Position numbers and translations under genes: made by a program. Positions 38,285 through 54,576 of a DNA stretch of 64,000 nucleotides are shown piece after piece. Each line of letters starts with the position of its first letter. Within the stretch, counting starts at the first letter, position 1. Location: positions 248,001-312,000 of the forward strand of contig NZ_JAPSKE010000005.1 of NCBI RefSeq assembly GCF_031177825.1. The letters run 5' to 3'. This DNA is from Paenibacillus sp. (GTDB taxonomy: Bacteria; Bacillota; Bacilli; Paenibacillales; YIM-B00363). The notes under the pieces were generated by a model. It saw only the letters and a program-made list of their open reading frames with translations, was not told the DNA's origin and did not search any database.

Positions 38285-39634
38285 TTATGGATTTTCGGAG
38301 ATCGCCTGGTTGACAGCCTCGTCGACTTCTCTCAAGACGGTGTTGATGTCGACGTTCTCCGTGACGACGCGGGTCAAGCCCTCCGTCACCTTGGTGGCCG
38401 CGGCGGCGTCCCACTTCGACTTCGCATATGGCGCCGCGAATTGATTTTCGTAGAGGACGTTAACATCCACTAGGCCGGCCACTGCATTGCCCTCGTACAA
38501 TTTGTTGCGAACATCCGGATTTACCAGCGGCGTAGCCAAACCAAGCGTCGCCAACTCCGATTGCACTTCGTCGGACGTATAATACTTAATGATTTCCAGC
38601 GCCAGCTCCGGTTGCTTCGAGGTCGTGGAGATCGCCAAGCCGCCTCCGAACAACCCCGTACCGATGCCCGGCGCGTCCTTGAACACCGGATAGGTCGTTA
38701 CCCCGATATCCATGCCCGCGTTAATCGCTTCAACCCAAGCCGAGCTGTGAACGGAAATCAGATGCGGGAACATCGCGAGGTTCTGGTCTTTGATAAATGC
38801 GTTGTTTCCGTCGCCTAGCGTCGCTCCTTCCGGGAAGTTCCCAGGCACGCCGTAGATGTCCTTGTAGGTTTGAAACAGCTTGCTCCAGCCCTCGTTGGAG
38901 CCGACGACCGATTTCCCTGAAGCCGCATCGACGTACGGCAGCGAAAGCTGCATTTGCAGTCGGTTCACGTTTATGCCGGCATGCAGCCCGCGGTAATTTA
39001 CGCCGTCCTGCGTTCTAGAGAGCTCCTTGGACAATTCGATTAACTCTTCCCATGTGCTGTTCGGTTTCGGGTAATCCACCCCGAACTTATCGAAGATCGC
39101 TTTGTTGTAATGCAGCACGAACGGCTGAATCGTGTAGGGAATCAAATACAGCTCCCCATTCGCCGCGTACGACCGGATATCGTCGACGATGAAAGGATCG
39201 AAGCGGTTCAAATCGATATTTTGTTCCTTCGCGAGCGGGTCCAGATCAAGCGCGAGATTCAGATCGATAATGCTCTTCAAGTTCGTAATGCCTTGGTCGA
39301 TAATATCCATCTGCGTGTTGGAGGCGACGACATCCGCGAAGGTGAAGTCTTTCGACGTGACGAGCTGTTTGACGGTCACGTTCGGGAATTGCTTGGTAAT
39401 AATGTCGATATACCGCCTCTTGAAGTCCGCTTCGCTGAAGTTTACCGAGATGACGATTTCGCCCGTCGCCGAGGACGGATCGAACTCCGCCGGCGCGTTC
39501 TCCGTCGGCGTCGGCGTCGGCGTCTCAGCCGGCGGCGACTGCGCCTCTTCGCCGGCGCCGCCGGCCCCCGAGCACCCGACGATCATCGTTGCAGCGAACA
39601 TCCCCATGACTACCGCTTTCATTTTGTTCTTCAA
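38285..39634 (-). CDS. Orphan sugar-binding lipoprotein (MalE/UgpB type)
   Basis: A 449-residue lipoprotein: signal MKAVVMGMFAATMIVG, lipobox Cys, then a Thr/Pro linker (PAETPTPTPTENAP) and an SBP_bac_1 domain of normal size. The TTG start is chosen because GGGAGG lies 8 bases upstream. The operon has no permease. The nearest unmatched permeases are the second pair of the four-permease operon just downstream. It follows the aldolase gene by 40 bases. Confidence 0.92.
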   Translation of the reverse strand: MKNKMKAVVMGMFAATMIVGCSGAGGAGEEAQSPPAETPTPTPTENAPAEFDPSSATGEIVISVNFSEADFKRRYIDIITKQFPNVTVKQLVTSKDFTFADVVASNTQMDIIDQGITNLKSIIDLNLALDLDPLAKEQNIDLNRFDPFIVDDIRSYAANGELYLIPYTIQPFVLHYNKAIFDKFGVDYPKPNSTWEELIELSKELSRTQDGVNYRGLHAGINVNRLQMQLSLPYVDAASGKSVVGSNEGWSKLFQTYKDIYGVPGNFPEGATLGDGNNAFIKDQNLAMFPHLISVHSSAWVEAINAGMDIGVTTYPVFKDAPGIGTGLFGGGLAISTTSKQPELALEIIKYYTSDEVQSELATLGLATPLVNPDVRNKLYEGNAVAGLVDVNVLYENQFAAPYAKSKWDAAAATKVTEGLTRVVTENVDINTVLREVDEAVNQAISENP

Positions 39635-39674: not shown

Positions 39675-40607
39675 TCAACTGCTGACGTTAGACTTCAGCC
39701 GTTCTCTTACGTAGGAAGTTAAGACTTGAAGCTGCTCGATCTCGAGCTTCTGATTCGGTTTAAAACACGTCTCGTCGATTACGCGGCTTCGAAGCTGCAG
39801 AGGAACTCCGCTCAGCTGCAAATGATACTTGGCATTCACAGGATAGTATTGCAATTCGACTAGGGACGCGACCCCGAGGAACGCCTGAATCGCATCCGCG
39901 ATCGCGGGGTCCGTACGCCAACGTTTCACCAAGTACGCATAAAGATCTAAATGAAAATTCGCCATAACGCCGCTGAAGCCAGCAGCCCCTAGTTTTAAGG
40001 ATTCTAGTAATGTAGAAGAGTTGGCATTGAATAGTTTCAAGCGGCTGCCTCTCACCGCCTCGAGCTTCGCCCTCATTTGCTCGACATCGCAACAAGTATC
40101 TTTAAGGAAGGAAAATCTCCCGGTGTCCGCGCACCATCTGAGCAACTCGGGACTTAACAGTCTCTTGTAAGGATAAGGACATTCGTAAATGCCGAACTGC
40201 ACTTCCGGCACCCGCTCTAAGAGATACTCCGCATTTCGCTTCCAAATCTCATCGTCCTCCTCGCGGGCAGCCAGTCGATTGCTAACGAGAACGACGGCGT
40301 CCACCCCCGTCGATGCGATCCTGCCCAACTCCTCGACCTGATCGTCCGATCGGTCCGAAATATGCCCCGAAGCGATGACGGGGAGCCGACCGTCCGCTTT
40401 CTCGACGACGAACTTCGCTAGAGCGACTCTCTCCTCCAGGGATAGATAGAACATCTCGCTGGACTGGCAGACGGCGAACAACCCGTCGCTGCCATGCGCG
40501 ATATACCATTCGATCAACATCTCTAATGCATCGTAATCGATGCTTCCCGAAGCCGTAAACGGCGTTACCATCGTCGGCCAAATTCCGTTAGGCACTTCTG
40601 GTTTCAT
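39675..40607 (-). CDS. Dihydrodipicolinate synthase-family aldolase/lyase
   Basis: A 310-residue class I aldolase TIM barrel. Schiff-base Lys169 lies in RFSFLKDTCCD and Tyr141 in GIYECPYP (the YxxP element). The carboxylate-binding loop reads VCQSSEMF instead of the GxTGE of DapA/NanA, so a different 2-keto acid is expected. Family members include NanA, KDG aldolase and hydroxyproline-pathway lyases. AGGGGG precedes the ATG. It sits between the sialidase-fold gene and the binding protein. A decayed homologue lies at 49250-49516 in front of another binding-protein gene. Confidence 0.92.
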   Translation of the reverse strand: MKPEVPNGIWPTMVTPFTASGSIDYDALEMLIEWYIAHGSDGLFAVCQSSEMFYLSLEERVALAKFVVEKADGRLPVIASGHISDRSDDQVEELGRIASTGVDAVVLVSNRLAAREEDDEIWKRNAEYLLERVPEVQFGIYECPYPYKRLLSPELLRWCADTGRFSFLKDTCCDVEQMRAKLEAVRGSRLKLFNANSSTLLESLKLGAAGFSGVMANFHLDLYAYLVKRWRTDPAIADAIQAFLGVASLVELQYYPVNAKYHLQLSGVPLQLRSRVIDETCFKPNQKLEIEQLQVLTSYVRERLKSNVSS

Positions 40608-40625: not shown

Positions 40626-42095
40626 CTATATCTTCCTGAAATCTGTGATTCTATGGTAAGTGATGTAGTTCGCATTGTGATAATTGAACGCCCCGTTCAG
40701 CGCCGTACGCGAGAGGAACACCAGATCGTCCCCGTGAATTTCCCAATCCACGTATTGAAAACCAGCTTGCTTGTCGTCCTCCGGCCATCCATTATCTTGG
40801 TAGTTGAGAATGTCTCGGCATATCGTCCAATGCTCCAGGTCGGGAGAGGAAACCAATGTCAGTATGTTGCGTTGAAAGATGTTCGACGAATTGACTCTGT
40901 TTACAAGCGACCAGTAGAGTCCGCTTACAGGATCGTATTGGATCGAAAATTTCGAAAGATTTCCGTAGAAATCTATTACTTTCCCGAAGGACAATGGACG
41001 TTCCGGATGCCGATCGTCAATTTCAAGAATAACCGCGCGGCCGTGTTCCGGCTCCCCGCCCTTCGTATGATAACGCAGAATATTGACTAACTTCCCGTCG
41101 GGCGTCACGACCACGTTCCCTTCAAGCACGCTCGGCGCGGCTCCTCCGCGTATCGATCCCGGCCAACTCGGATCGTAGGGCAGGAACGGCGAACAGATCC
41201 AACTGGAAGGATCGAGCAAGTCGCCATCGACGCTCGCGGAGACGACCCCCGCATCGTGACCGCCTAACGACCAGGCGCCGTACTCGATCGCCGACCAGAG
41301 ACGGCCGCGATGCTCGACGACCGGCATCGGCGCTTTATGAGGGCCGCCGGAATCCCGATCCCCACCGGGTAAAATCACGCTGGGTCCGGACCAGGTTTTC
41401 CCTTCGTCGTCGGAGCGACCGATGATCAAGTCCCCGTATTCCGTGCGTGTCGCCAACATATAGACGCTCCCGCGATGCTGGAACAACTTGCCCCAGAAGC
41501 ACGGATATAAGTCGCATAAGAAGCTCCAGGTTCGGCCGCCATCCAGGGATTCGAAAATCTTACTTAGATTCTGCCCCCCCTTCTGCCAGTAAACGTCATG
41601 CGAAACTAACATGCGGCCGTTCGGCAACGTCGTGATCGACGGACTCGCGGGCGATCTCCCCGAGTAATCGTATGTGTAGTCCTCCGGATGGATATAGTTC
41701 ACGACAGTGCCGGGGACGACTCCGGGCCTAGCCAATCTAACGGCGCTTTCCGAAACGACCTCTTCCGTCCCTTTCGCGCCGGCCGTCACCTTCAGTTCAT
41801 AATCCTCGCCGTTGGTTAAGCCGCGAACGACGACCGACGTCTCCCCTTCGGCCGCCGGATACGCGCCAACCCGTCCCGAACTGCCGCGGCGGAACAGTTC
41901 TACGCGAAACTCCAACCCCCGCAGATCGGTTTCTTTCCCCTCGTACGCGAAGTCTACTTCCAGCATGCCGTCCCCCGGGGCCAATCGGACGATATGGATG
42001 TCATTGAGCGCGTCGTAACCAACCGCCGCACCAAGCGCGCTTTGGGTTCGGAAACTCCACGTCGGCCACGGCGGTCGGATGTCCTTATTCCGCAT
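40626..42095 (-). CDS. Intracellular sialidase-fold (BNR/Asp-box) protein
   Basis: A 489-residue protein with no signal peptide. A fibronectin-like strand region covers about 40-125 and a six-bladed propeller follows. Two clear Asp boxes are present: SLDGGRTW (183-190) and SDDEGKTW (228-235). The propeller starts with SPSITTLPNGRMLVSHD. These are features of exo-sialidases and relatives. I cannot place the full Arg triad, so the activity may be on another acidic sugar. First gene of the IclR-controlled operon: a long leader with two operators precedes it. Confidence 0.85.
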   Translation of the reverse strand: MRNKDIRPPWPTWSFRTQSALGAAVGYDALNDIHIVRLAPGDGMLEVDFAYEGKETDLRGLEFRVELFRRGSSGRVGAYPAAEGETSVVVRGLTNGEDYELKVTAGAKGTEEVVSESAVRLARPGVVPGTVVNYIHPEDYTYDYSGRSPASPSITTLPNGRMLVSHDVYWQKGGQNLSKIFESLDGGRTWSFLCDLYPCFWGKLFQHRGSVYMLATRTEYGDLIIGRSDDEGKTWSGPSVILPGGDRDSGGPHKAPMPVVEHRGRLWSAIEYGAWSLGGHDAGVVSASVDGDLLDPSSWICSPFLPYDPSWPGSIRGGAAPSVLEGNVVVTPDGKLVNILRYHTKGGEPEHGRAVILEIDDRHPERPLSFGKVIDFYGNLSKFSIQYDPVSGLYWSLVNRVNSSNIFQRNILTLVSSPDLEHWTICRDILNYQDNGWPEDDKQAGFQYVDWEIHGDDLVFLSRTALNGAFNYHNANYITYHRITDFRKI

Positions 42096-42134
42096 CTCCC
42101 ATTCCCCTTCCGATGACTTCTTGTTCCTAAATAG

Positions 42135-42147
42135 AGAACGTCGTTCT
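42135..42147. promoter_or_regulatory. IclR operator, leader copy
   Basis: AGAAC-GTC-GTTCT lies about 85 bases into the transcribed leader of the sialidase-fold operon. It could act as a roadblock or secondary site, together with the copy at 42217-42229. Confidence 0.65.
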
Positions 42148-42203: not shown

Positions 42204-42229
42204 TGTTCTTAATTAGAGAACGACGTTCT
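42204..42229. promoter_or_regulatory. IclR operator at the transcription start
   Basis: AGAAC-GAC-GTTCT (42217-42229) begins next to the expected +1. The 18 bases at 42204-42221, with an extra GTTCT half-site, are identical to 49540-49557. Confidence 0.75.
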
Positions 42230-42309: not shown

Positions 42310-43062
42310 CTACAACTTGTTTTCAATTTCGGTTACGGCCTGTTTCAATAAAGAGGATAACTCCCGAATTTTCTCTTCGTCGAAGCGCAAGGAAGGTCCC
42401 GAGACGCTGATCGCCGCAATCAATTGCTTGCGCTTGTTTAGAATCGGCATTCCGATGCACTTGATCCCATACTCATGTTCCATTCTATCGAGCGAATACC
42501 CTCTTTCCCGGGTCTCGGCGAGTTCTTGCAATAAGAGCTCCGCGTTCGTGATTGTATTATCCGTGAATTTCTTCAATCCTCTCGAAATTACGTCCGACAC
42601 CGTCTCTTCCGGCAACACCGAAAGCATCGCCTTGCCGGTGCCCGTGCAATGAAGCGGCGCCTTGACTCCAAGCATGGATCTGGTCGATAACTGGTTTTTC
42701 GGCAAGCAAGCATCCAAATAGATAACTTCTCCTTCGTAAGGAACCGCCAAATAAACGATTTCATTCACTTTATCCGCGATTTCCTGCATGTAAGGGATCA
42801 TCAGCTTCCGGAAGCTAATGTTGCTGGAGATAATGTTACCGAGTTGCAAAATTTTGAACCCGAGACGGTACTTCCCGTTGTCCTCGTTCTGTTCCAAATA
42901 GCCCGCCTTGACGAATGTCGTTACGATATTCGAAACATTGCTTTTATAGAAACCGAGGTGTTGGCTGAGCTCGGTAATTCCCCATTCCGGTTTTTCCAAC
43001 GAAAAACAATCCATGATCTTCAATGCCCTGAATAAGGACTTGACTTTAACATCTTCCTCCAC
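42310..43062 (-). CDS. IclR-family regulator
   Basis: A 250-residue regulator. The winged helix (about 8-70) has LFRALKIMDCFSLEKPEWGI and ITELSQHLGFYKSNVSNIVT; the effector-binding GAF-like domain contains LHCTGTGKAMLSVL and the closing GPSLRFDEEKI. GTG at 43062 is chosen because GAGG lies 8 bases upstream; GTG at 43071 would touch it. IclR proteins usually repress catabolic genes until an aldehyde or keto acid binds. The repeated AGAAC-N3-GTTCT sites around it are its likely operators, and a degenerate copy in its own leader suggests autoregulation. Confidence 0.94.
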   Translation of the reverse strand: MEEDVKVKSLFRALKIMDCFSLEKPEWGITELSQHLGFYKSNVSNIVTTFVKAGYLEQNEDNGKYRLGFKILQLGNIISSNISFRKLMIPYMQEIADKVNEIVYLAVPYEGEVIYLDACLPKNQLSTRSMLGVKAPLHCTGTGKAMLSVLPEETVSDVISRGLKKFTDNTITNAELLLQELAETRERGYSLDRMEHEYGIKCIGMPILNKRKQLIAAISVSGPSLRFDEEKIRELSSLLKQAVTEIENKL

Positions 43063-43085
43063 GAACGACACCTCGCATCATTTTA

Positions 43086-43211: not shown

Positions 43212-43224
43212 AGAACAACGTTCT
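43212..43224. promoter_or_regulatory. IclR operator at the Tat-substrate promoter
   Basis: AGAAC-AAC-GTTCT is placed at about +5 to +17, the same position relative to -10 as in the other two promoters. Confidence 0.75.
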
Positions 43225-43293
43225 TCTATAAGGAACACCTTAGGAGGATGATGGCTCTCTATTTAACCATTAACTACGAAGGGAGAAGTTAGA

Positions 43294-45399
43294 ATGAACG
43301 AAAGTTCTAAGACGGACGACTTGCATGGAAATTCGCAACAATCGTGGGAGAAGGCGACGATCAGCCGCCGGAAACTGTTAGCCGCGCTTGGCGTATCCGG
43401 CGTAGCTTTCATCGCATCCGGGCTGCCCGGCGGATTATTGCCGAGGGCCCAAGGCGAGACCGTGTCCGAGAACGTATACGGCAGCGGCAAGGATCAGAAG
43501 AAGGTCACGCAGTTGGAACTGCAGAGCATGAACGGCATCCAAGCAGGTACGTTGGCCGAATGGTTAAGTCAGCCTCCCGGGAATAACAATCAGATATACT
43601 ATGTTACGGATGCCGGTAGGGAGGGGCATTTCTACTACGATGTTACAGACCTTACCTCTCCGGCGGATGGCGGTACGATATACATAACCGGCGAGGGCGT
43701 AAGATTTAAGAGGATCTATGAGGGGAGTCTGAACGCCCGTTGGTTCGGCGCCGCGGCCGATGGCGTTACCGACGATACGGACTCGCTTCGAAGAGCGCTC
43801 GAGGCTTCGCGCGGGAAATCGTTGTATCTTCCGCATGGCGTCTACTTGGTTACGGACACGCTCACGATTCCGCGGAATACATTCGTTCGAGGCGCTGGTA
43901 ATTCTTCATGGTTTACCTTCGGCCAACGGAGGAACGAACTGCCCGACAGCATTTTAGACATGGAAAACGGAACGATCCTTAAATTTATCGGCAGCGGCTC
44001 CAGCCGCTTCTCCAGCAACCGATCCGAGTTCCAGAACTTCACCTGCGCCGTGAGGTTCGAGCGCGACGGAGACGGCATTCAACTATCCGACCTCAAGATA
44101 CTGTCCCACTTCCGCATTCGCGACGATTTCGGCGCGATCACGACGCCGGATACAGACCAACACGCGATGATCGATGTAGGGCTTTGGATCGACAACGCCG
44201 ACCATATTAAGCTGAATAGAGTCTCTGTCGTGGGGTATTGGCAGAAGGCCGGGTTGTATATCGACGCATCGGGCCGTCTCTCCCAGGGCGGAGAGTTCGG
44301 AGCCGTCGAATATGCGACGATCGAAGATTGCTTCTTCCAGGGTAAAATCGGCGTGGCCATCCTCGGCGGAGACGAAGGAAATCCTCCCGACGAATTCGGA
44401 TTCTCCCCCCCTGCCGTCGGCTCGGATGAGATGTCGGAAGGTCAGTTCGGCATCTCCCATGTCCTCGTATCCGATTGCTTCTTCTCCGGAACCGATCACC
44501 ATTCCAATGGGTTCGCTTCCGGTTGGCAGCAGCGAATCGCGCCGGATAGTACGCCTCTGATGATCGACGGCTTCATCGGCAGCGGCAGCCCCTATCGCGT
44601 GAACCATCAGCGATTCGTCAACTGTTCGTTCCAAACTCGGGAGAGCGCTTCCATTGTGTTAAACCGCGTGATTCGCCCTGCGTTCGTGAACTGCCGCGCG
44701 GAGAGCGGCCCGATTCGGGCAAGCAAATACACCTTGCTGCCCCGCCTCATCAATTGCGAATTTCCGTACAATCGAACCAACCCGGCTTATCAGGAAATAG
44801 AACACTGTCCCGGAGCTGTAATCATCCCTGAGTTCCGAAGACTTGGACATGTCCACCTTCGGACGTTCGAGTTCAAGATCGAGCTTCGAAACAACAACGG
44901 CGTGATCGAGCATCGGATGGGCAAAGCCAACGGCATCCAGAGCAGCGCCGCGTCCAAGGACGTAGAAGCCCTGTTTCGTTACGCGATCCAGTCGGGCGGT
45001 TGGAATTATCGGACATGGTCGGCCACCCCCGTTCCGGGTAACGGAGCGAGCGACGATTATTCCAAGGGCTGCTTCCTTGGAGAGAAGTCGTTCCTTGCCA
45101 AGTATAATTTGTTTACGTGCGCGGCGATCGATAACCATCCCGATTATCAAGAAGCCGAGGTTTCCGTCGTCGAATCGCGAGCGGCCGACCCGGAGTTATG
45201 GGTTAGGGCGGCGGTGTTTTCCACGCAAAACGTACCTTACCGCATGAATGGGTATTCCAGCGCATTAAAACTCGAACTGCGCAACGGCTCGGGCCCGGCC
45301 ACGACGTTATCCCAGAATCTCCCCATGGAGAATAACGGTCCAGCCAGCTTAATTCTGAAAGTAAGAGGGAAATTTTACGAGCAAATCTACGGGGTGTGA
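43294..45399 (+). CDS. Tat-exported right-handed beta-helix protein (Pectate_lyase_3 type)
   Basis: A 701-residue protein. The Tat signal is ATISRRKLLAALGVSGVAFI (twin Arg, then hydrophobic core, about residues 20-45). A short beta-rich lead ends with ARWFGAAADGVTDDTDSLRR (about 150), the entry to a beta-helix of the Pectate_lyase_3 superfamily, with YLPHGVYLVTDTLTIPRNTF. Later coils such as HIKLNRVSVVGYWQKAGLYI follow, and a C-terminal beta domain closes it. Tat use implies folding, perhaps with a cofactor, before export. Polysaccharide lyase, epimerase or hydrolase activity on an acidic glycan is likely. GAAGGGAGA precedes the ATG. tatA follows 12 bases later. Confidence 0.88.
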   Translation: MNESSKTDDLHGNSQQSWEKATISRRKLLAALGVSGVAFIASGLPGGLLPRAQGETVSENVYGSGKDQKKVTQLELQSMNGIQAGTLAEWLSQPPGNNNQIYYVTDAGREGHFYYDVTDLTSPADGGTIYITGEGVRFKRIYEGSLNARWFGAAADGVTDDTDSLRRALEASRGKSLYLPHGVYLVTDTLTIPRNTFVRGAGNSSWFTFGQRRNELPDSILDMENGTILKFIGSGSSRFSSNRSEFQNFTCAVRFERDGDGIQLSDLKILSHFRIRDDFGAITTPDTDQHAMIDVGLWIDNADHIKLNRVSVVGYWQKAGLYIDASGRLSQGGEFGAVEYATIEDCFFQGKIGVAILGGDEGNPPDEFGFSPPAVGSDEMSEGQFGISHVLVSDCFFSGTDHHSNGFASGWQQRIAPDSTPLMIDGFIGSGSPYRVNHQRFVNCSFQTRESASIVLNRVIRPAFVNCRAESGPIRASKYTLLPRLINCEFPYNRTNPAYQEIEHCPGAVIIPEFRRLGHVHLRTFEFKIELRNNNGVIEHRMGKANGIQSSAASKDVEALFRYAIQSGGWNYRTWSATPVPGNGASDDYSKGCFLGEKSFLAKYNLFTCAAIDNHPDYQEAEVSVVESRAADPELWVRAAVFSTQNVPYRMNGYSSALKLELRNGSGPATTLSQNLPMENNGPASLILKVRGKFYEQIYGV

Positions 45400-45664: not shown

Positions 45665-46567
45665 TTACCCTTTCACCGACCCGATCATGACGCCTTTGAC
45701 GAAATATTTTTGCACGAACGGGTAGAAACATAGAATCGGCAGCGTGGACACGATAATGACCGCGTAACGCATCGACTCCACCAAATAGATTTGCGCCGCG
45801 GCGTCCCCTCCCATGCTGGCGGAATCGCTGGCCATGCTGAGGGCGGATTGGTTGACGATTAAATCCCGCAACACCATCTGAAGCGGCATCTGCTCTTCTT
45901 TCGTTAAATAAATCATTGCGGTAAACCAGGAATTCCACTGGGATACAGCCGCGAAGAGCACCAATACGGCGATCAAGGCTTTGGAAACCGGCATTACGAT
46001 ACGAAAGAAGAACGAGGTATGCGAGCAGCCGTCGATGCAGGCGGCTTCGTACAATTCGTCGGGAATCGTCGACTTCATGAACGTTCGGCTAATGATAATA
46101 TTCGTGACGTTGACCGCGCCCATCAGGACGATGATGGCCGGACTGCCGTACAAACCGATTTCCTTCATCAGCAGGTACGTAGGGATGAGACCGCCGTTGA
46201 AGAACATCGTGAATAGCAGGAAGGCGATAACGGCGGTTTTCCCGGGGAATGGCTTCCGTGAGAGCGCGTATCCGGCCATCAGACTGATCATTACTGATAG
46301 AGAGGTGAACAAGACGGTATAGATCAGCGTGTTGCGGTATCCCGTCCAGATCGGCGAATACTGAATGACCTCCATGTATCCATCTAAATTGAAGCTTTGA
46401 GGCCAAAGCAGAATGCGCCCGGTGGCGACCAGCTTCGGATCGCTGATCGAAGCGATGACGACGAAATACAGCGGATAAGCCACAAGGAGCAGCAGCAGAA
46501 TCAAGATCGCATAGTTGAAGGCGTCATACAGCCGATCCTGATTCGACCGCTTCATCGCATGTCGCAT
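45665..46567 (-). CDS. ABC importer permease, LplC-like
   Basis: A 300-residue permease. Helix 1 is YAILILLLLLVAYPLYFVVI, the EAA loop is LYEAACIDGCSHTSFFFRI, and the C-terminus is GVMIGSVKG. The ATG at 46567 is favoured by GGAGGGAGG; the frame opens 6 codons earlier. Last gene of the importer operon. Confidence 0.92.
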   Translation of the reverse strand: MRHAMKRSNQDRLYDAFNYAILILLLLLVAYPLYFVVIASISDPKLVATGRILLWPQSFNLDGYMEVIQYSPIWTGYRNTLIYTVLFTSLSVMISLMAGYALSRKPFPGKTAVIAFLLFTMFFNGGLIPTYLLMKEIGLYGSPAIIVLMGAVNVTNIIISRTFMKSTIPDELYEAACIDGCSHTSFFFRIVMPVSKALIAVLVLFAAVSQWNSWFTAMIYLTKEEQMPLQMVLRDLIVNQSALSMASDSASMGGDAAAQIYLVESMRYAVIIVSTLPILCFYPFVQKYFVKGVMIGSVKG

Positions 46568-46578
46568 AGGCCTCCCTC

Positions 46579-47526
46579 CTACCATAACGATTCCTGGCCA
46601 AGTCGTCTGCTGACCTGGTTCACCAGGAGAATCATAATAAAGTTGATGCCGGAGTTAAACAAGCCGATGGCGGCGGAGAGGCTGTACTGCGCCTCCCGGA
46701 TCCCGATTTTGTACACGTACGTGTTGATGACCTCGCTTGTGCTTAGGTTAAACGCGTTCTGCATCAAGAACGTTTTCTCGAAGCCCACATTCATAATCGT
46801 TCCGGATTCAAGAATCAGGAGAATGACGATGGTAGGCAGAATTAACGGCAGATCGATGCGTATCACCCGCTGAAACTTGGTCGCTCCGTCGATAATGGCG
46901 GCCTCGTGCAGCGCAGGATCTACGCCCGACAACGCGCCGAGATAGATGATGCTGCTCCAACCGAGGGTTTGCCATACGCCGCTCCACACATACAGATGCG
47001 GAAAACTTGACGCGCTCATGAGCACGTCGATGTTGCCTTCCATCAGTCCCACGTTGGTAAGCAGGCTTCGGACGATCCCTGTGGAAGGGGAGAAGAAGAT
47101 GTTAATCATGCCGACGATGATGACGATGGATATGAAATGCGGAGCATACGTGACCGTCTGGACCAACTTCTTCAGCCTCTGATTCGGCGTGCTGTTCAAG
47201 GCCAGCGCCAATAGAATCGGTAGAGGAAAGCCCGCAATCAACATGTAGAAGCTGAGAATCAGCGTATTTTTAAGAATGACGTCGAACATCGGCATAGAGA
47301 AGAATCGGTCGAAATACTTCCACCCCGCCCATGCGCTGTCGAGGATGCCGAGATGAGGCTTGAAGTCCTTGAATGCTACCAAGATGCCGTACATCGGCAA
47401 GTAGCTAAAGACAATGACCAGTACGACGGCGGGCAGAAGGAAGAGATACAGTTCGCGGCTTTGCCAGATTCGAAAGCGTAAAGGCTTCTCCTTCTCCCGC
47501 GGTTTGCCGAGGCCTGTTGTGACCAC
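46579..47526 (-). CDS. ABC importer permease, LplB-like
   Basis: A 315-residue permease. Helix 1 LFLLPAVVLVIVFSYLPMYG is the LplB signature and the EAA loop is LHEAAIIDGATKFQRVIRI. It starts with GTG 21 bases after the lipoprotein stop, with GGGGGAGG upstream. Confidence 0.92.
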   Translation of the reverse strand: MVTTGLGKPREKEKPLRFRIWQSRELYLFLLPAVVLVIVFSYLPMYGILVAFKDFKPHLGILDSAWAGWKYFDRFFSMPMFDVILKNTLILSFYMLIAGFPLPILLALALNSTPNQRLKKLVQTVTYAPHFISIVIIVGMINIFFSPSTGIVRSLLTNVGLMEGNIDVLMSASSFPHLYVWSGVWQTLGWSSIIYLGALSGVDPALHEAAIIDGATKFQRVIRIDLPLILPTIVILLILESGTIMNVGFEKTFLMQNAFNLSTSEVINTYVYKIGIREAQYSLSAAIGLFNSGINFIMILLVNQVSRRLGQESLW

Positions 47527-47547: not shown

Positions 47548-49206
47548 TTACTTCGCCATGACTTCGTACGCCTTCTGTCTTAATGCGATAAACGGCTCCA
47601 ACCCGAGGTTGTTCATCTGCTCGACGTAAGCATCCCAATTGGCGTCGATATCTTGTTTCCCGGTGATGAAATCCGCGAATACCGCCTTGCGGTAGTTGGT
47701 CAAATCCGTACGGTATTGGTTCAGCATTGCGATGTCGTCCGGCCCGAGCGCGCCTTCTACGTACACCATGTCGTTGGGCATAACGACGTCCTTATAAACA
47801 TTTTCATAGGCCCAAGCTCTGGAATTTACGGTATCGTATGACAACTCTTTCCACACTTCTTCATAAAAGGTTTGACCCTTCAGCGCGACAAACGAGTTAT
47901 GCAGTCCTAAATCCCCTGCATGCTCCGCCATCTTGTCCGGGGATTCCTCCCAGAAGTGCTGGAATGCCTTCCCCTCGTTATCGATATCCCAGACGATTCC
48001 CTTCGTTCCCCGGCTGATCGTAAGTCCTAGCTCCGTATCGGTCGCGATGGCTTCGAGCAGACGAACCGTGGCGACCGGATATTTGTTGTTCTTGGTAATG
48101 ATCGCGGTATGGGCAGGGCCCGGAACATAGGCTTGACTTCGCATCAGCGGCTTCCGGCCGTTTCCGGTGTCCAGCGGCCCCATGGGCGCGCCGAGATCGG
48201 GCTGCCGGTTCGCATAAGAGTGATAGGATCCGACGATGGGAGGAATCGAACTGATCTTCGAAGCATAGGTGTTAAAGTCGTCCGTAAACACCTCGGGCGG
48301 AATCAGACCTTCCGCATACAGATCTCTTAAATATTTCAACGGTTCCTTGATCGCCGGATTCGTGGACTGATCCTTCACGACGCCGTTCTCTACGACGACA
48401 TAATCGGCGCTGGTAATGTAGACCCCGAAGCTGCCGTAGATGTCGAACTGCCCGCCGACATAGCCGTCGAAGTAGAAATAATATGGGATGACGTCAGCCG
48501 GTATCGTCCCTTGGCCCGCATTCGCCTTGATGGCCTTCAGCGCGTTTTTAAACTCCTCCGCTGTTTTGGGAATCGGCAGATTCAGCTCCTTCAGCCATGA
48601 GTCCATCACGATCCATTGGTCCCGCAAGTTCCGGTCGAACGGAGCGAAGTCGATATAAGGCAAACTGTAGAGCTTCCCGTCCGTTGCCAGAGAAGCGTTG
48701 TACACCAACTTGTTCTCTTCCAGAAAACGGTTCCACGTCGGCGCATATTGTTCCAACAGCGGCTTCAGCTCGACGAAGTTGCCTCCCTCCGCAGCATTCG
48801 TCATCTGGTTGGCGTTGATCCCGACGTTCATCAGGAGATCGGGGAAGTCGCCGCTCGCGAACATAAGGTCCGCTTTATCCCGATCCTTCAACACTTCGAT
48901 CTCCAAATTGATGTTTGTCTTCTTGGCTACGTACTCCCATATGGCCGTCGTATCCATCTCGGGGCGTAAGGAGCTATACATGACTGCAGCTTTAATGGTG
49001 ATCGGTTCCTTGGTTATCGGGTACCCCTCCGGATGGGTCACCCCGCCGTCCGCCAGCCCCGATGTGTCCTCGTTCTGTTCCGCCGGCGGAGCGGACTCGC
49101 CGGTCGGCGGTTCGCTGGAGTCGTTCATACAGCCGGCGAGGACGCCGAAGGCCAACACGACGGACATACCTGACGAGACGGCGATACGATTTCTTTGCAG
49201 TTTCAT
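47548..49206 (-). CDS. LplA-like solute-binding lipoprotein
   Basis: A 552-residue lipoprotein: signal RIAVSSGMSVVLAFGVLAG, lipobox Cys, Ser/Pro/Glu linker, then a large LplA-type binding domain (WEYVAKKTNINLEIEVLKD, DFPDLLMNVGINANQM). GGGAGGTT precedes the ATG. Its promoter and IclR operator lie about 350-400 bases upstream; the gap holds a decayed aldolase gene. The order aldolase then binding protein therefore matches 39675/38285. The ligand is probably an oligosaccharide released by the Tat-exported beta-helix protein; this is inferred from co-regulation. Confidence 0.93.
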   Translation of the reverse strand: MKLQRNRIAVSSGMSVVLAFGVLAGCMNDSSEPPTGESAPPAEQNEDTSGLADGGVTHPEGYPITKEPITIKAAVMYSSLRPEMDTTAIWEYVAKKTNINLEIEVLKDRDKADLMFASGDFPDLLMNVGINANQMTNAAEGGNFVELKPLLEQYAPTWNRFLEENKLVYNASLATDGKLYSLPYIDFAPFDRNLRDQWIVMDSWLKELNLPIPKTAEEFKNALKAIKANAGQGTIPADVIPYYFYFDGYVGGQFDIYGSFGVYITSADYVVVENGVVKDQSTNPAIKEPLKYLRDLYAEGLIPPEVFTDDFNTYASKISSIPPIVGSYHSYANRQPDLGAPMGPLDTGNGRKPLMRSQAYVPGPAHTAIITKNNKYPVATVRLLEAIATDTELGLTISRGTKGIVWDIDNEGKAFQHFWEESPDKMAEHAGDLGLHNSFVALKGQTFYEEVWKELSYDTVNSRAWAYENVYKDVVMPNDMVYVEGALGPDDIAMLNQYRTDLTNYRKAVFADFITGKQDIDANWDAYVEQMNNLGLEPFIALRQKAYEVMAK

Positions 49207-49249
49207 ACAACGATAACCTCCCTCATGATTTTTATTGAATGGTGCTTAA

Positions 49250-49516
49250 TGGCCGGCGCCGGCGAAACGGAGCACTTTCGTCGTAAAGAGTCTCTTGTAA
49301 GGTTACGGGCATTCGTAAATACCGAGAGGGACGGAGGGGATATGGATAAAAGCGCTTCCATCTTATCGACCAAAAAATCATCCGAATGATCGGGGTCAGC
49401 GAATCGACTGAACCTGCCCCTCCGGTCGGCGCCGTATGCTCCGACGCAACCACCTGCAGATCGCCCGAAAAGGGTGTCACCATAGTCGGTCATACGCCGC
49501 TGCGGATGTGTTGCAC
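49250..49516 (-). pseudogene. Decayed dihydrodipicolinate synthase-family gene
   Basis: From GTG at 49516 (AGGGGGAG upstream) the minus strand reads IRSGV-stop-PTMVTPFSGD, matching NGIWPTMVTPFTAS of the aldolase at 39675-40607, with Trp changed to TGA. After a deletion, LQVVASEH matches LPVIASGH and GADRRGRFSRFADPDHSDDF matches the segment around GVDAVVLVSNRL. After a frameshift, LGIYECP-stop-PYKRL matches GIYECPYPYKRL; there 33 of 37 bases are identical. Stops, a frameshift and an internal deletion show it is dead. It remains between the IclR promoter and the lipoprotein gene. The 3' boundary is approximate. Confidence 0.8.
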
Positions 49517-49539
49517 AGAAAACTCCCCCTTTTTCTAAT

Positions 49540-49565
49540 TGTTCTTAATTAGAGAACATCGTTCT
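49540..49565. promoter_or_regulatory. IclR operator of the importer operon
   Basis: AGAAC-ATC-GTTCT at 49553-49565, preceded by the 18-base segment identical to 42204-42221. It sits at about +16 to +28. Confidence 0.75.
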
Positions 49566-49587: not shown

Positions 49588-49616
49588 ATCTTAGCATAGG
49601 GTTATTTTGGTGTAAA
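49588..49616 (-). promoter_or_regulatory. Promoter of the decayed aldolase / importer operon
   Basis: Minus-strand TTTACA (49611-49616) and TAAGAT (49588-49593) with a 17-base spacer. Confidence 0.5.
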
Positions 49617-49708: not shown

Positions 49709-51574
49709 TCAACCCAGTTCGATGCGAGCCGCTTCTTTCGTCGATGTCCCGAAATAGACAAGCAACTCCTCCGCCGTAAGCTCAAGATAGGGCGGATGGC
49801 TCCATTGCCCCAGACCATCCTCTTTTCCAGGTTGCCCGTACACGCCGGTCGCGAGCCAAGTCGTTCCCGGGGCAAGCGTCGTCGCGATCGTCGGGATGAC
49901 CGTTCGAGGATGGATCAGATTCGTGTTCGCGTTCGGATGAACGAGATGGGCGCCGCCTCCTCCTAGAAGCCGAATCACGCCGCTCGCTCCCAAATAAGAA
50001 GAAGCCACAAGCTTGGACTCTTCGGGAACGGCATGCCAGCGATCCCCTGCTTCGACGTCCCGGTTTTCGATGCCTAACGCAAACCCGCCCTCGGCCGCAA
50101 CCAAGGATCGGTTCGAGCGAATGCAGTGCACGCGAACATGCCAGGGAGCGCCCGAAACGATCCACGTACGCACTTCGACGTCGCGCCAGGGCTTCCACTT
50201 CATGTAGATAACGTTCTCTTGGATGGAATACTCTTCGGCGGTTCTTTTCACGCGATAAAGATTGTCTTCCTCGCTGAGCGCCAGCATCGAATCGAACGCC
50301 CCCTGCGCTAGACCCCATTCCGCCCGGGGCACGCTGAAACCGAAGACGTTCGAGTAAGCGAACTTTTCGTATTTCGCGGACGTATGCGTGTGCTCGTTGG
50401 TCGCCTTATGACCCGCATTGAACGCTACTACGTGATTTCTTTCGTCCTGCCGATGAACGATCTGCCGCGACTCCGCCTGAACGGCGGACGCGGCAAGCTT
50501 CGGCAGCGGCAGCTCCTCGGCTTGCCAGAACGGGTGATCCGCCTGCAAAGCCAACGGCAGGAACGTTTTTAACGCCCAATACGGAGAACCCGGAGCGTTA
50601 TAATTTTCCGCCATAATAAGATTCGGATAGGCATACCCGATCGTCAAGGTGCCGTCCGCTTGAAAGATCGGCTGCCGAAACCACCATCGCAAATTCCGAA
50701 GGATAATCCCTTTCATCACGCCCATAGGGTAGGCTTCTACGTCGGCGTACGCCATGGCGCTCCAGAACGCAGCTTGCGTAAAGCGATAGGCAAGGCTTCG
50801 CCCGAACGGCAAGGCGCTCCCGTCGCCGGCGAACCAATGGATGAAGTCCTTCGCGAAGCTGGCCGCTCTCTCCTTATATAAGGCGGATCGCTCCGGATCC
50901 TCCTTCTCCATGAAGACGGCATAGATGAGGCAGCAATAATGGATGGCGAAAGGACCGTAATAGTCGCAGTGGGCGTCGCGGCCGTCGGAATACCACCCGT
51001 CGGACAAAGAAAACGCGTCGATTCTGTCCAAATTTCGGTGCATTAACGCTTGATCGTACGGGAGACCGACCGCTCGAAAGCCCAAATTGACGACCACTTG
51101 AAAAAGGAGCCAATTGCAATCATGAAGCTTTCGATGATTGATTTGTTGAAGCCACTGGTACAGCCGTTGCCGTTCCGGCTCCTGCAGCGGCTCCCAAATC
51201 TGGTCGGGAGCTAAAGCTAGCGCCAGCCCGATCGCCGCCATCTCCACCAGCTTCTGATCGTAATCGGCCGCTTCGCCCCAATATTCTCGATGCGCAGGGT
51301 CGGTGCCGTTCCGGATGCCTTCGCGAACCGTCTCCCACAGCTCGCTCTTCCCGCCTCCGGCAGCTAACGGCGCGAGCCCCCATAACACCCTGGAGAAGCC
51401 CTCCAACTCGGCCGTTGCGCCGGTGCAACCCGAGGCCGTCGCTCCGAGCCGCAGGCGGGCTTTCCCTTCGCTGTAGTAAGGCAGCAACGGCAGACACAGC
51501 TGGTTCACCGCGGCTTGCAGATCTTCTCTTGTAGCTAACGGATTACGTTGGATCGGTAATGTCAAGGAATGCAT
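49709..51574 (-). CDS. DUF2264 protein, probable carbohydrate-active enzyme
   Basis: A 621-residue protein that I recognise as DUF2264. There is no signal peptide. The N-terminal two thirds are helical, as in alpha/alpha toroids (LHDCNWLLFQVVVNLGFRAV, SDGWYSDGRDAHCDYYGPFA), followed by a beta-sandwich from about 400. Polar, possibly catalytic clusters include GRDAHCDYYG and KATNEHTHTSAKYEKF. No reaction is established; the fold and neighbours suggest action on oligosaccharides in the cytosol. It is last in the operon, 16 bases after the GH88 gene stop. Confidence 0.85.
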   Translation of the reverse strand: MHSLTLPIQRNPLATREDLQAAVNQLCLPLLPYYSEGKARLRLGATASGCTGATAELEGFSRVLWGLAPLAAGGGKSELWETVREGIRNGTDPAHREYWGEAADYDQKLVEMAAIGLALALAPDQIWEPLQEPERQRLYQWLQQINHRKLHDCNWLLFQVVVNLGFRAVGLPYDQALMHRNLDRIDAFSLSDGWYSDGRDAHCDYYGPFAIHYCCLIYAVFMEKEDPERSALYKERAASFAKDFIHWFAGDGSALPFGRSLAYRFTQAAFWSAMAYADVEAYPMGVMKGIILRNLRWWFRQPIFQADGTLTIGYAYPNLIMAENYNAPGSPYWALKTFLPLALQADHPFWQAEELPLPKLAASAVQAESRQIVHRQDERNHVVAFNAGHKATNEHTHTSAKYEKFAYSNVFGFSVPRAEWGLAQGAFDSMLALSEEDNLYRVKRTAEEYSIQENVIYMKWKPWRDVEVRTWIVSGAPWHVRVHCIRSNRSLVAAEGGFALGIENRDVEAGDRWHAVPEESKLVASSYLGASGVIRLLGGGGAHLVHPNANTNLIHPRTVIPTIATTLAPGTTWLATGVYGQPGKEDGLGQWSHPPYLELTAEELLVYFGTSTKEAARIELG

Positions 51575-51590
51575 GGAGCGAGATCCCCCT

Positions 51591-52718
51591 TTACCAAAAT
51601 AGCTCGCCGTGTCCCAACCATTGAGAGAGACCTTCCACGAAGTAGTAATCGCCGTAGATCAGAGGGACGTCAATATTTCTGCCTTCCGGGTAATGGCTCG
51701 TTCCATGTAAAATCAGCCCTTCTTCGTCTTCCTTATCGAAGGTGCCGTAATGCTCATACAAGGAACGAAGGATGCGCTCGCCCGCATGGCGGTAAAGGTC
51801 GGACTCCACGACGGCCACCTGCTTCGCAAGCAGCAGGAGTCCGCAAGCCGCGCACGCCCCGGCCGACGAATCGCGGTACTTGGGCACCTCCGCGGGAAGA
51901 CGGAAATCCCAGTGGGGGACATGATCCTCCGGGAGATTGGCGAGGAAGAAATGCGCCACGCGCTTCGCCGCCTGTAAATAACGCTCATCCCCCGTATGTC
52001 GATAGCTGAGCGCCATACCGTACAACGCCCATGCGGTGCCGCGCGACCAAGCCGACTCGGCCGAGTAGCCCTGTCCTCCGTTCGCTCCGACCTTCTCGCC
52101 GGTCAAGGGATCGAAGATGACGATATGGTACACCGAGCCGTCGGGTCGGATGAAATGCTCCAACACCGTATCCGCGTGCGCGACGGCGATATGCTTGAAG
52201 CGCGGATCCCCGGTCGCCTCGGAAGCCCAATGCAATAACGGCAAATTCATCATACAATCGATGATCGCCCAGCCCGCGTTGTTTTCCCCGGGTTTCCAGG
52301 GATTCCAAGCCCGAATAAACTTTCCTTGAATATTGAAGCGCGCCGCAAGAAGGTTGGCCGCCAGCAGCGCGCGGCGCCTGGAATCTTCGTTATCGAGCAG
52401 CTTATACCGGGCAACGCTGGTTAAGGTCCACATAAAACCGATATCGTGATCCAGACGATAATACTCGGCAATGACTGGATCCAGCTTCTCCTCGCACGCC
52501 TCGGCGATGTTCCGCAGCGCCTCGTCCTTCGTATCGCGGTACACGAGCCAAAGCAGACCGGGCCAGAAGCCCGCGGTCCACCAATGAGCCGGCTCCAACG
52601 CGTATTTACCGTTCACGCTGGCGTGAGGAAATGCGGGTCCGATGCGGCCGCTCGTTCGAGACACCTTCTCTACCACGTCGTTCCAAGCGCTCTGCGCCCA
52701 ATCCGTTCGTACGTTCAT
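51591..52718 (-). CDS. GH88 unsaturated glucuronyl hydrolase
   Basis: A 375-residue alpha/alpha-barrel hydrolase without signal peptide. The two key Asp of unsaturated glucuronyl hydrolases are seen as Asp92 in LDHDIGFMW and Asp154 in WAIIDCMMNLPLL; the aromatic PAHWWTAGFWPGLLW also fits. It removes the 4,5-unsaturated uronate left by lyases, by hydration of the double bond. The start at 52718 follows GAGAGGGTG; the longer frame begins inside the upstream gene. It is next to a heparinase-like lyase, as expected for its substrate source. Confidence 0.93.
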   Translation of the reverse strand: MNVRTDWAQSAWNDVVEKVSRTSGRIGPAFPHASVNGKYALEPAHWWTAGFWPGLLWLVYRDTKDEALRNIAEACEEKLDPVIAEYYRLDHDIGFMWTLTSVARYKLLDNEDSRRRALLAANLLAARFNIQGKFIRAWNPWKPGENNAGWAIIDCMMNLPLLHWASEATGDPRFKHIAVAHADTVLEHFIRPDGSVYHIVIFDPLTGEKVGANGGQGYSAESAWSRGTAWALYGMALSYRHTGDERYLQAAKRVAHFFLANLPEDHVPHWDFRLPAEVPKYRDSSAGACAACGLLLLAKQVAVVESDLYRHAGERILRSLYEHYGTFDKEDEEGLILHGTSHYPEGRNIDVPLIYGDYYFVEGLSQWLGHGELFW

Positions 52719-52737
52719 CGGGGACACCCTCTCCATG

Positions 52738-54564
52738 TTAAGTAAGACGATAGGTTTCAAAACGGACCGTAATCGGCACTTCTTCGGCCGGATGCTCCGC
52801 CTCCAAATCGATTGCATACACCGGAATGCGCTTGGAGTCTTTGTTCACAAATTCAAATGTATGAATGACCGGCCTCACCGCCCGTCGATCGAACACCGCT
52901 TCGACGCCGGACGCAGCCCCTTCGACCCGGACGCGTCCGTCCGCGGAAACCTTCGGTTCATGTAAAGTTATGAATCTACTGATCGCGGATGATGGCGGCG
53001 TAAGAAACGAATACCTGTCTTTCAACTCAAGAACATGTCGCGCAAAGGTAAACTGCCGGACCAGCGACCGCAGATTCGCCGTTCCGTACGCTTCCGTCAT
53101 GTCGAGGGTATAGGTTACTTGCTCTTCGCTTTCTTCGAACCGAAGCACCTTCGCTCGATACGTTGCGCCGGCTTGTTGATCGGCACCCTCGACGATCGGA
53201 ACGGAATGCCCCGCCGAGCTGTTGCATAAATACGAGTACCGCTCCGCCCCGAAATAGCCCTTCGTATATTCGCCGGAGCCGAGATCGGTCAGCAGCGTTT
53301 CCCCGTCGACATGGAGCACGAAGCTCCCGATATCGTTCTGGTTATGCGGTTCGTCGTTATGGCCGCCTTTCGCGGCGAACGCGTACCGTACGCCGTCGAA
53401 CGTCCGTCTGACGACCGCCCACTGCGCGTCCGGCAGCAAGTACGCACCGTCCGGCCACTCCTCGCCCGTCCACTCGGCGCGGCTCCAGAGGAAGTCCCGA
53501 ATGAAGGGGCCCCATCTCCCGATCGGATCCTTCACGATGCTCCACTTATTCTCTACGTTCGGAACGTGGATCTCGGGGTAACGACGTTTCAATGCATGAA
53601 TCAAGCCCATGGAAAACAGGGACGTCGGCTCGCAATCGGAGAACGGCACCGTGTAAGGCCCGCTCAGGTAACACTTCTGATGAAACAACGCGATTTGCTT
53701 GATTTTCTCGCCTTCCAGCAAATCGATCCGTCCCGCGGTTCTTTGCTTGAGCAGCGAGGCGAAGTACGAGTAAAAGCCGAAACCGTAACTCCAGTATCCT
53801 ACGCCCTCCGTGGAGGCGCCGTCGTTTCCGAAGCCGTGCAGGTAGCTCTCCATCGTCCCCAACAACCGATGAACGATCGGCGCGAGCTCCTCGGCGCTTG
53901 GGATTAGATACAAGGCGGCGGCGCCGACGGAGCCGCCGCATACGCTCGCCCAGTTGTTCCCCAAAGTTTCCCACTCATAGGTGGAGCCGAGGGTACAGTA
54001 GGTTTCTAGAATCCTCTCTCTCACTTCCGCTTCCGCTCGGGACGCGACCGCAGGACTTATTCTCTCTTTAAGAAGAAAGACGATTTCCGCAAGGGCGAAC
54101 CCGGTCTCCGCGGCGAACAAATCGATGCTGTATCGATTTCGCCGCAGGTGCGACGGGTTCAGTGAATTCCCGCCCAAGTGAGCCGGCAGGCACCAAGTAT
54201 ACTCGTCGCATATGGCCCATATCGCGTCCTCCAGCGCATGAACATAGAGGTCGGAATCCTTGTCGAGCAGAGCCAAAAACGCAAGGACCGATAAACGCTT
54301 TCGCCTCGCGAAAAACAAACGTTCGAATTCGATTCTCGACCCCTGGGTATCGAATGACTTGAAGGAAGAGAACGCAAGCGTAACGATCGGCTCGGAGAGC
54401 AGACGTTCCCCTTCTTCCCGGATCTCCTCCACCATCTCCCGATAGAAGGGGGACGTCCGGATTTCCTCCCATTTGCCCGCGTCTCTCGCCTCGTCGAACA
54501 ACATCGTGCGCCGATCCGAACGATCGCCGATCTGCAAGGCCCGTTTGATAGCAACGTAATCCAT
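52738..54564 (-). CDS. Heparinase II/III-family lyase, cytoplasmic
   Basis: A 608-residue protein: an alpha/alpha-toroid (about 60-370) with NNWASVCGGSVGAAALYL and the Tyr-rich EGVGYWSYGFGFYSYF, then a beta-sandwich starting at GGHNDEPHNQNDIGSFV, the Hepar_II_III signature. Tyr and His in these motifs are candidate catalytic residues. No signal peptide, so it is probably an exo-lyase for imported oligosaccharides (heparin, alginate or exopolysaccharide type). GAGGGG serves ATG at 54564 (another ATG two codons earlier). Only 12 bases separate it from the response regulator. Confidence 0.9.
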   Translation of the reverse strand: MDYVAIKRALQIGDRSDRRTMLFDEARDAGKWEEIRTSPFYREMVEEIREEGERLLSEPIVTLAFSSFKSFDTQGSRIEFERLFFARRKRLSVLAFLALLDKDSDLYVHALEDAIWAICDEYTWCLPAHLGGNSLNPSHLRRNRYSIDLFAAETGFALAEIVFLLKERISPAVASRAEAEVRERILETYCTLGSTYEWETLGNNWASVCGGSVGAAALYLIPSAEELAPIVHRLLGTMESYLHGFGNDGASTEGVGYWSYGFGFYSYFASLLKQRTAGRIDLLEGEKIKQIALFHQKCYLSGPYTVPFSDCEPTSLFSMGLIHALKRRYPEIHVPNVENKWSIVKDPIGRWGPFIRDFLWSRAEWTGEEWPDGAYLLPDAQWAVVRRTFDGVRYAFAAKGGHNDEPHNQNDIGSFVLHVDGETLLTDLGSGEYTKGYFGAERYSYLCNSSAGHSVPIVEGADQQAGATYRAKVLRFEESEEQVTYTLDMTEAYGTANLRSLVRQFTFARHVLELKDRYSFLTPPSSAISRFITLHEPKVSADGRVRVEGAASGVEAVFDRRAVRPVIHTFEFVNKDSKRIPVYAIDLEAEHPAEEVPITVRFETYRLT

Positions 54565-54576
54565 AGTCATCCCCTC

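Follow-up and report, generated by a model that had tools for sequence, protein, structure and literature searches.

Positions 49246-49516 on the minus strand of the window (the whole 64,000-nucleotide stretch of Paenibacillus sp. DNA analysed here) hold what reads from the sequence as a true pseudogene, native to its own operon. The remnant is very probably the decayed original first gene of a sugar-uptake operon, aldolase-SBP3-permB3-permC3 (lineage A), beside which lies a second cluster (lineage B) with the same operator that is the probable supplier of a working aldolase. The best reading is ordinary gene decay with paralog replacement in a mosaic operon cluster, not recent duplication. 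The initial annotation had placed a dead aldolase behind an IclR promoter at 49250-49516; tblastn, a genome search, a profile and shuffled sequences uphold the remnant and nearly its exact limits, and both the lesions and the retained three-box IclR-type site at 49541-49564 bear out the description. The remnant and the operon that it heads comprise the following features.

49246-49516, minus strand: aldolase pseudogene of the DHDPS family, lineage A, from a GTG at 49516-49514 to a TAA at 49248-49246
49424-49519, minus strand: pseudogene piece 1, SVQHIRSGV*PTMVTPFSGD and LQVVASEHTAPT, with a deletion of about 55 codons between them (alignment to syntenic aldolases)
49335-49409, minus strand: pseudogene piece 2, in another frame, SRFADPDHSDDFLVDKMEALL (44% identical to syntenic aldolases)
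49264-49341, minus strand: pseudogene piece 3, in a third frame, IPSVPLGIYECP*PYKRLFTTKVLRF (76% to Paenibacillus agaridevorans)
47548-49206, minus strand: SBP3, an intact ABC binding protein
46579-47526, minus strand: permB3, ABC permease of the SBP3 operon (78-86% identical in relatives)
45665-46585, minus strand: permC3, ABC permease of the SBP3 operon; the BNR gene that follows it in relatives is absent (comparison with relatives)
49588-49616, minus strand: SBP3-operon promoter, TTTACA-17-TAAGAT, its -10 preceded by TG; the sister genome G001 and the syntenic relatives conserve it

The remnant adjoins the upstream side of SBP3. It is homologous to an intact family and has an intact syntenic ortholog, yet a TGA interrupts it after eight codons, its frame changes, internal deletions have removed parts of it, and the C-terminal half is absent. 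Two in-frame stops fall within it and three reading frames are used, with the pieces still collinear. The catalytic residue is lost, the Schiff-base lysine region (FLKDTC in the intact gene) being absent altogether. Searching the window by tblastn with its intact aldolase recovers the third piece at 49341-49264 (E=1.7e-5, internal TAA) and, in a different frame, SGV*PTMVTPFSG at 49501-49463 (internal TGA); a whole-genome search recovers the third piece independently (E=1.4e-4). With a profile built from nine homologs, two frames score 27.7 and 8.6 bits and are collinear; the third frame, that of the middle piece, is non-significant in the profile but clear against the syntenic aldolases. Against these intact syntenic genes the best remnant piece reaches 45.1 bits, while the maximum among 500 shuffles is 23.9.

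An intact aldolase lies directly upstream of SBP3 in all four syntenic relatives, P. agaridevorans (locus L042), P. sabuli (L041), Paenibacillus sp. HB172176 (L045) and 'Bacillus' sp. FJAT-28004 (L043), which answers in the affirmative the initial annotation's question of whether relatives carry an intact gene here. The layout is the same in the four: a divergent IclR gene, then operator-aldolase-SBP-permease-permease-BNR. The window shares with them the promoter, the three-box operator, the aldolase-SBP3-permB3-permC3 order and transport proteins that are 72-86% identical (72-77% for SBP3). Unlike the relatives' complete operon, that of the window keeps its aldolase in wrecked form only and is without adjacent IclR and BNR genes. 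No BNR remnant was found in the sequence downstream of permC3, and no lineage-A IclR was found in either the window's genome or G001.

The kinship of the remnant points the same way, to an aldolase subfamily that, as far as the surviving residues tell, is other than that of the window's intact gene. Of its 77 residues compared, 46 are identical to the P. agaridevorans aldolase, the nearest relative, and 34 to the window's own. A tree of 41 sequences places the remnant with the four syntenic aldolases (support 96/96), and forcing it beside the window aldolase is 16 log units worse (p-AU 0.023), although in this 77-residue test the pieces are set on the columns of the P. agaridevorans gene, which may favour that clade. 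A stricter test, of the 39 most certain residues on window-gene columns, returns the syntenic clade with support 97/100 and a p-AU of 0.12 for the rival. The remnant is a long branch in the tree. The stricter test leaves the window grouping unrejected, and synteny therefore carries much of the weight. The genome holds a further intact aldolase of the family, 59% identical to the window's, on contig C24 (L017:9320-10243), next to another ABC operon. As a source of the remnant, this paralog is 14 log units worse (p-AU 0.024).

The intact window aldolase belongs to a neighbouring group of genes that is of the lineage-B kind.

39675-40607, minus strand: intact aldolase, lineage B, probable functional replacement (PF00701; homology)
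40626-42095, minus strand: BNR-type protein, lineage B, 489 aa, upstream of the intact aldolase (below the Pfam cut-off)
38285-39634, minus strand: SBP2, the binding protein that follows the intact aldolase
42310-43071, minus strand: IclR-family regulator, lineage B, the sole member of its subgroup found in the genome

This aldolase matches PF00701 (E=3e-25, above the cut-off), with the catalytic Lys and Tyr present. Its similarity to the characterised members of the DHDPS/N-acetylneuraminate lyase superfamily (class I pyruvate aldolases, PF00701) is only distant; the remnant, by comparison, is entirely without the lysine region. In the nearest solved structure, YagE, annotated as a probable 2-keto-3-deoxy-galactonate aldolase, the lysine of KDT and the Y of GIYECP align with the window aldolase. 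The lineage-B layout recurs in other genomes of the order: tandem operators, an IclR that is 63-66% identical to the window's, an aldolase at 65-68% and often a BNR gene at 55-62%. The A and B aldolases are about 53% identical to each other.

The initial annotation explained the two units differently, by duplication of a promoter-aldolase-binding protein unit within the cluster and later decay of one aldolase copy. Two observations speak for such an event: the same operator sequence lies upstream of an aldolase followed by a binding protein in both units, and one stretch of 40 bases is 87.5% identical between them. The shared gene order is true as far as it goes, but it leaves out the 489-aa BNR gene that stands between the operator and the living aldolase. 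The 40-base stretch is GIYECPYPYKRL, a motif conserved in the family, and the best-scoring DNA match of the remnant is P. agaridevorans, longer (67 bases, 80.6%) and with a higher score. Likewise, the pieces do align with the aldolase at 39675-40607, but the one rendered as LPVIASGH reads LQVVASEHTAPT, nearer to the syntenic DGLQVIVSGHT than to the window's GRLPVIASGHI. Beyond this one motif and the operators, no DNA similarity was found between the units, and SBP2 and SBP3 have no homology detectable by BLAST (best E=0.11). With a BNR gene between operator and living aldolase and binding proteins that lack BLAST homology, the units are therefore not copies. The differing promoters, the tree and AU test and the intact syntenic genes in relatives also contradict duplication, which is thus a very unlikely origin for the remnant.

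The operator shared by the two units accounts for the remaining resemblance. Its pattern, GAAC-N3-GTTC-N9-GAAC, consists of three boxes in alternating direction, and four copies lie in the window.

49541-49564, minus strand: operator copy 1, three-box IclR-type, GAACGATGTTCTCTAATTAAGAAC, downstream of the -10 (pattern search; boxes aligned with relatives)
42205-42228, minus strand: operator copy 2, before BNR-aldolase-SBP2 (pattern search)
42123-42146, minus strand: operator copy 3, in tandem with copy 2 (pattern search)
43213-43236, plus strand: operator copy 4, in front of gene 43294-45399, which is pectate-lyase/epimerase-like (pattern search)

The pattern has four matches in the 6.36-Mb genome, every one in the described cluster, and G001 likewise has four in the same cluster; a reversed control pattern matches zero to one time per genome. 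At one mismatch or fewer, 0.48 matches would be expected within the window. The operator stands before the syntenic aldolase once each in genomes G375 and G309, the latter with two more matches elsewhere, and is present in all four syntenic relatives (with one mismatch in two of them). The alternating boxes and their conservation across orthologous promoters mark it as a predicted operator. Between the -10 of the SBP3-operon promoter and the start of the operator downstream of it lie about 23 bp. In alignment with the promoters of the syntenic relatives, the dead gene's promoter outscores every shuffle or almost every one; the window's other operator regions align with it weakly or not at all. 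The 18-base identity on which the initial annotation relied is real (TGTTCTTAATTAGAGAAC at 49541-49564 and 42205-42228) but not unique, given the two further copies. It is best read as the site that the local regulator recognises and not as a copied promoter; a shared regulator site explains the identity without duplication.

Three-box sites are known for the IclR-family regulators PcaU, PobR and HmgR, and 32 groups have been predicted (PMC8222616). The window sites resemble those of PcaU, PobR and HmgR in their three alternating boxes and in the tandem sites before one operon, but the window regulator belongs to another subgroup than these systems (PMC8222616). Neither Paenibacillus nor a GAAC-type word was found in the main text of that study (PMC8222616).

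The close-relative comparison consists of one genome, G001, whose cluster has about 93% DNA identity to the window's. There, the segment 49266-49538 is swapped for about 94 other bases whose translation in one frame, KYSLSLHSVPIEIGSRVLNADL, has 55-68% identity with the syntenic aldolases over residues 259-283; none of 500 shuffles scores as high. This C-terminal scrap (L016:6550-6716) complements the window's N-terminal half, and the last codons, the closing TAA and the SBP3 leader are common to both genomes. The aldolase gene was most likely already there in the common ancestor of the two genomes, with different deletions in each line afterwards.

The comparison with G001 bears on three further explanations. 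That the remnant is alive, whether as a small protein-coding gene or as a structured leader, is very unlikely: a 96-codon frame is indeed open at 49203-49493 and overlaps the SBP3 start, but it crosses the pieces of a frameshifted gene and has no counterpart either in the different bases of G001 or in the relatives with an intact aldolase. Still less probable is a foreign aldolase fragment, inserted before SBP3 and never functional there. Such an insert would suit the almost wholly different length and content of the segment in the two genomes, but gene order, start region, promoter and kinship fit the relatives' intact operon, and G001 retains, in this very position, a different portion of the aldolase gene. 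An intact gene broken by sequencing or assembly error can be dismissed, although the genome is a 60-contig draft, because hundreds of bases are gone, three frames are used and G001, an independent genome, has no intact gene either but a remnant of its own.

The surroundings hint at the substrate. Behind operator copy 4, the plus-strand gene 43294-45399 encodes a protein that resembles pectate lyases/epimerases and has a twin-arginine-like leader; with that operator in front, it is therefore probably a member of the same IclR regulon. On the other side, a run of minus-strand genes in one direction (49709-54570: DUF2264, GH88 and heparinase II/III-like) is probably a uronate-polysaccharide locus, and a terminator-like hairpin at 49664-49640 closes this run just before the SBP3-operon promoter. 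The GH88, heparinase-like lyase, DUF2264 and pectate-lyase-like neighbours together point to uronate-containing polysaccharides as the setting.

Decay of the operon's own first gene, the preferred reading, suggests the following course. Ancestrally, the lineage-A operon would have been complete, the aldolase coming first, BNR last and a divergent IclR gene ahead of them. In the window lineage, stops, frameshifts and extensive deletions have destroyed the aldolase, and the IclR and BNR genes that belonged to the operon are missing too. The SBP3 operon now stands beside the lineage-B cluster (IclR, BNR, aldolase and SBP2) with its same three-box operator, and this cluster probably supplies it with IclR, BNR and aldolase functions. 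The lineage-B IclR protein would bind the operator downstream of the -10 and block transcription until an inducer, probably a uronate breakdown product, lifts repression. The induced operon would then yield nothing but the transporter, with SBP3 translation starting from a ribosome-binding sequence of its own, while the lineage-B aldolase at 39675-40607 would perform the aldol cleavage. Regulation, substrate and functional replacement are all inferred here; the paralogous aldolase in the adjoining operon plausibly explains the loss. Whether the outcome is a hybrid regulon, in which the SBP3 transport operon was captured through the shared operator by a second, 46%-identical IclR and its aldolase, with the redundant parts decaying after the takeover, is an evenly balanced question.

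Nothing specific was found in the literature on a Paenibacillus cluster of this kind. The sister genomes, with their different and complementary scraps of one gene, and the shared operator make a neat case of otherwise routine decay. The cluster might also catch in the act how redundant enzymes vanish once two operons for sugar utilisation that share an operator have met. Among Paenibacillus relatives, the four operators in one cluster would define a small predicted IclR regulon, of which the regulator, the site and the targets are directly testable.
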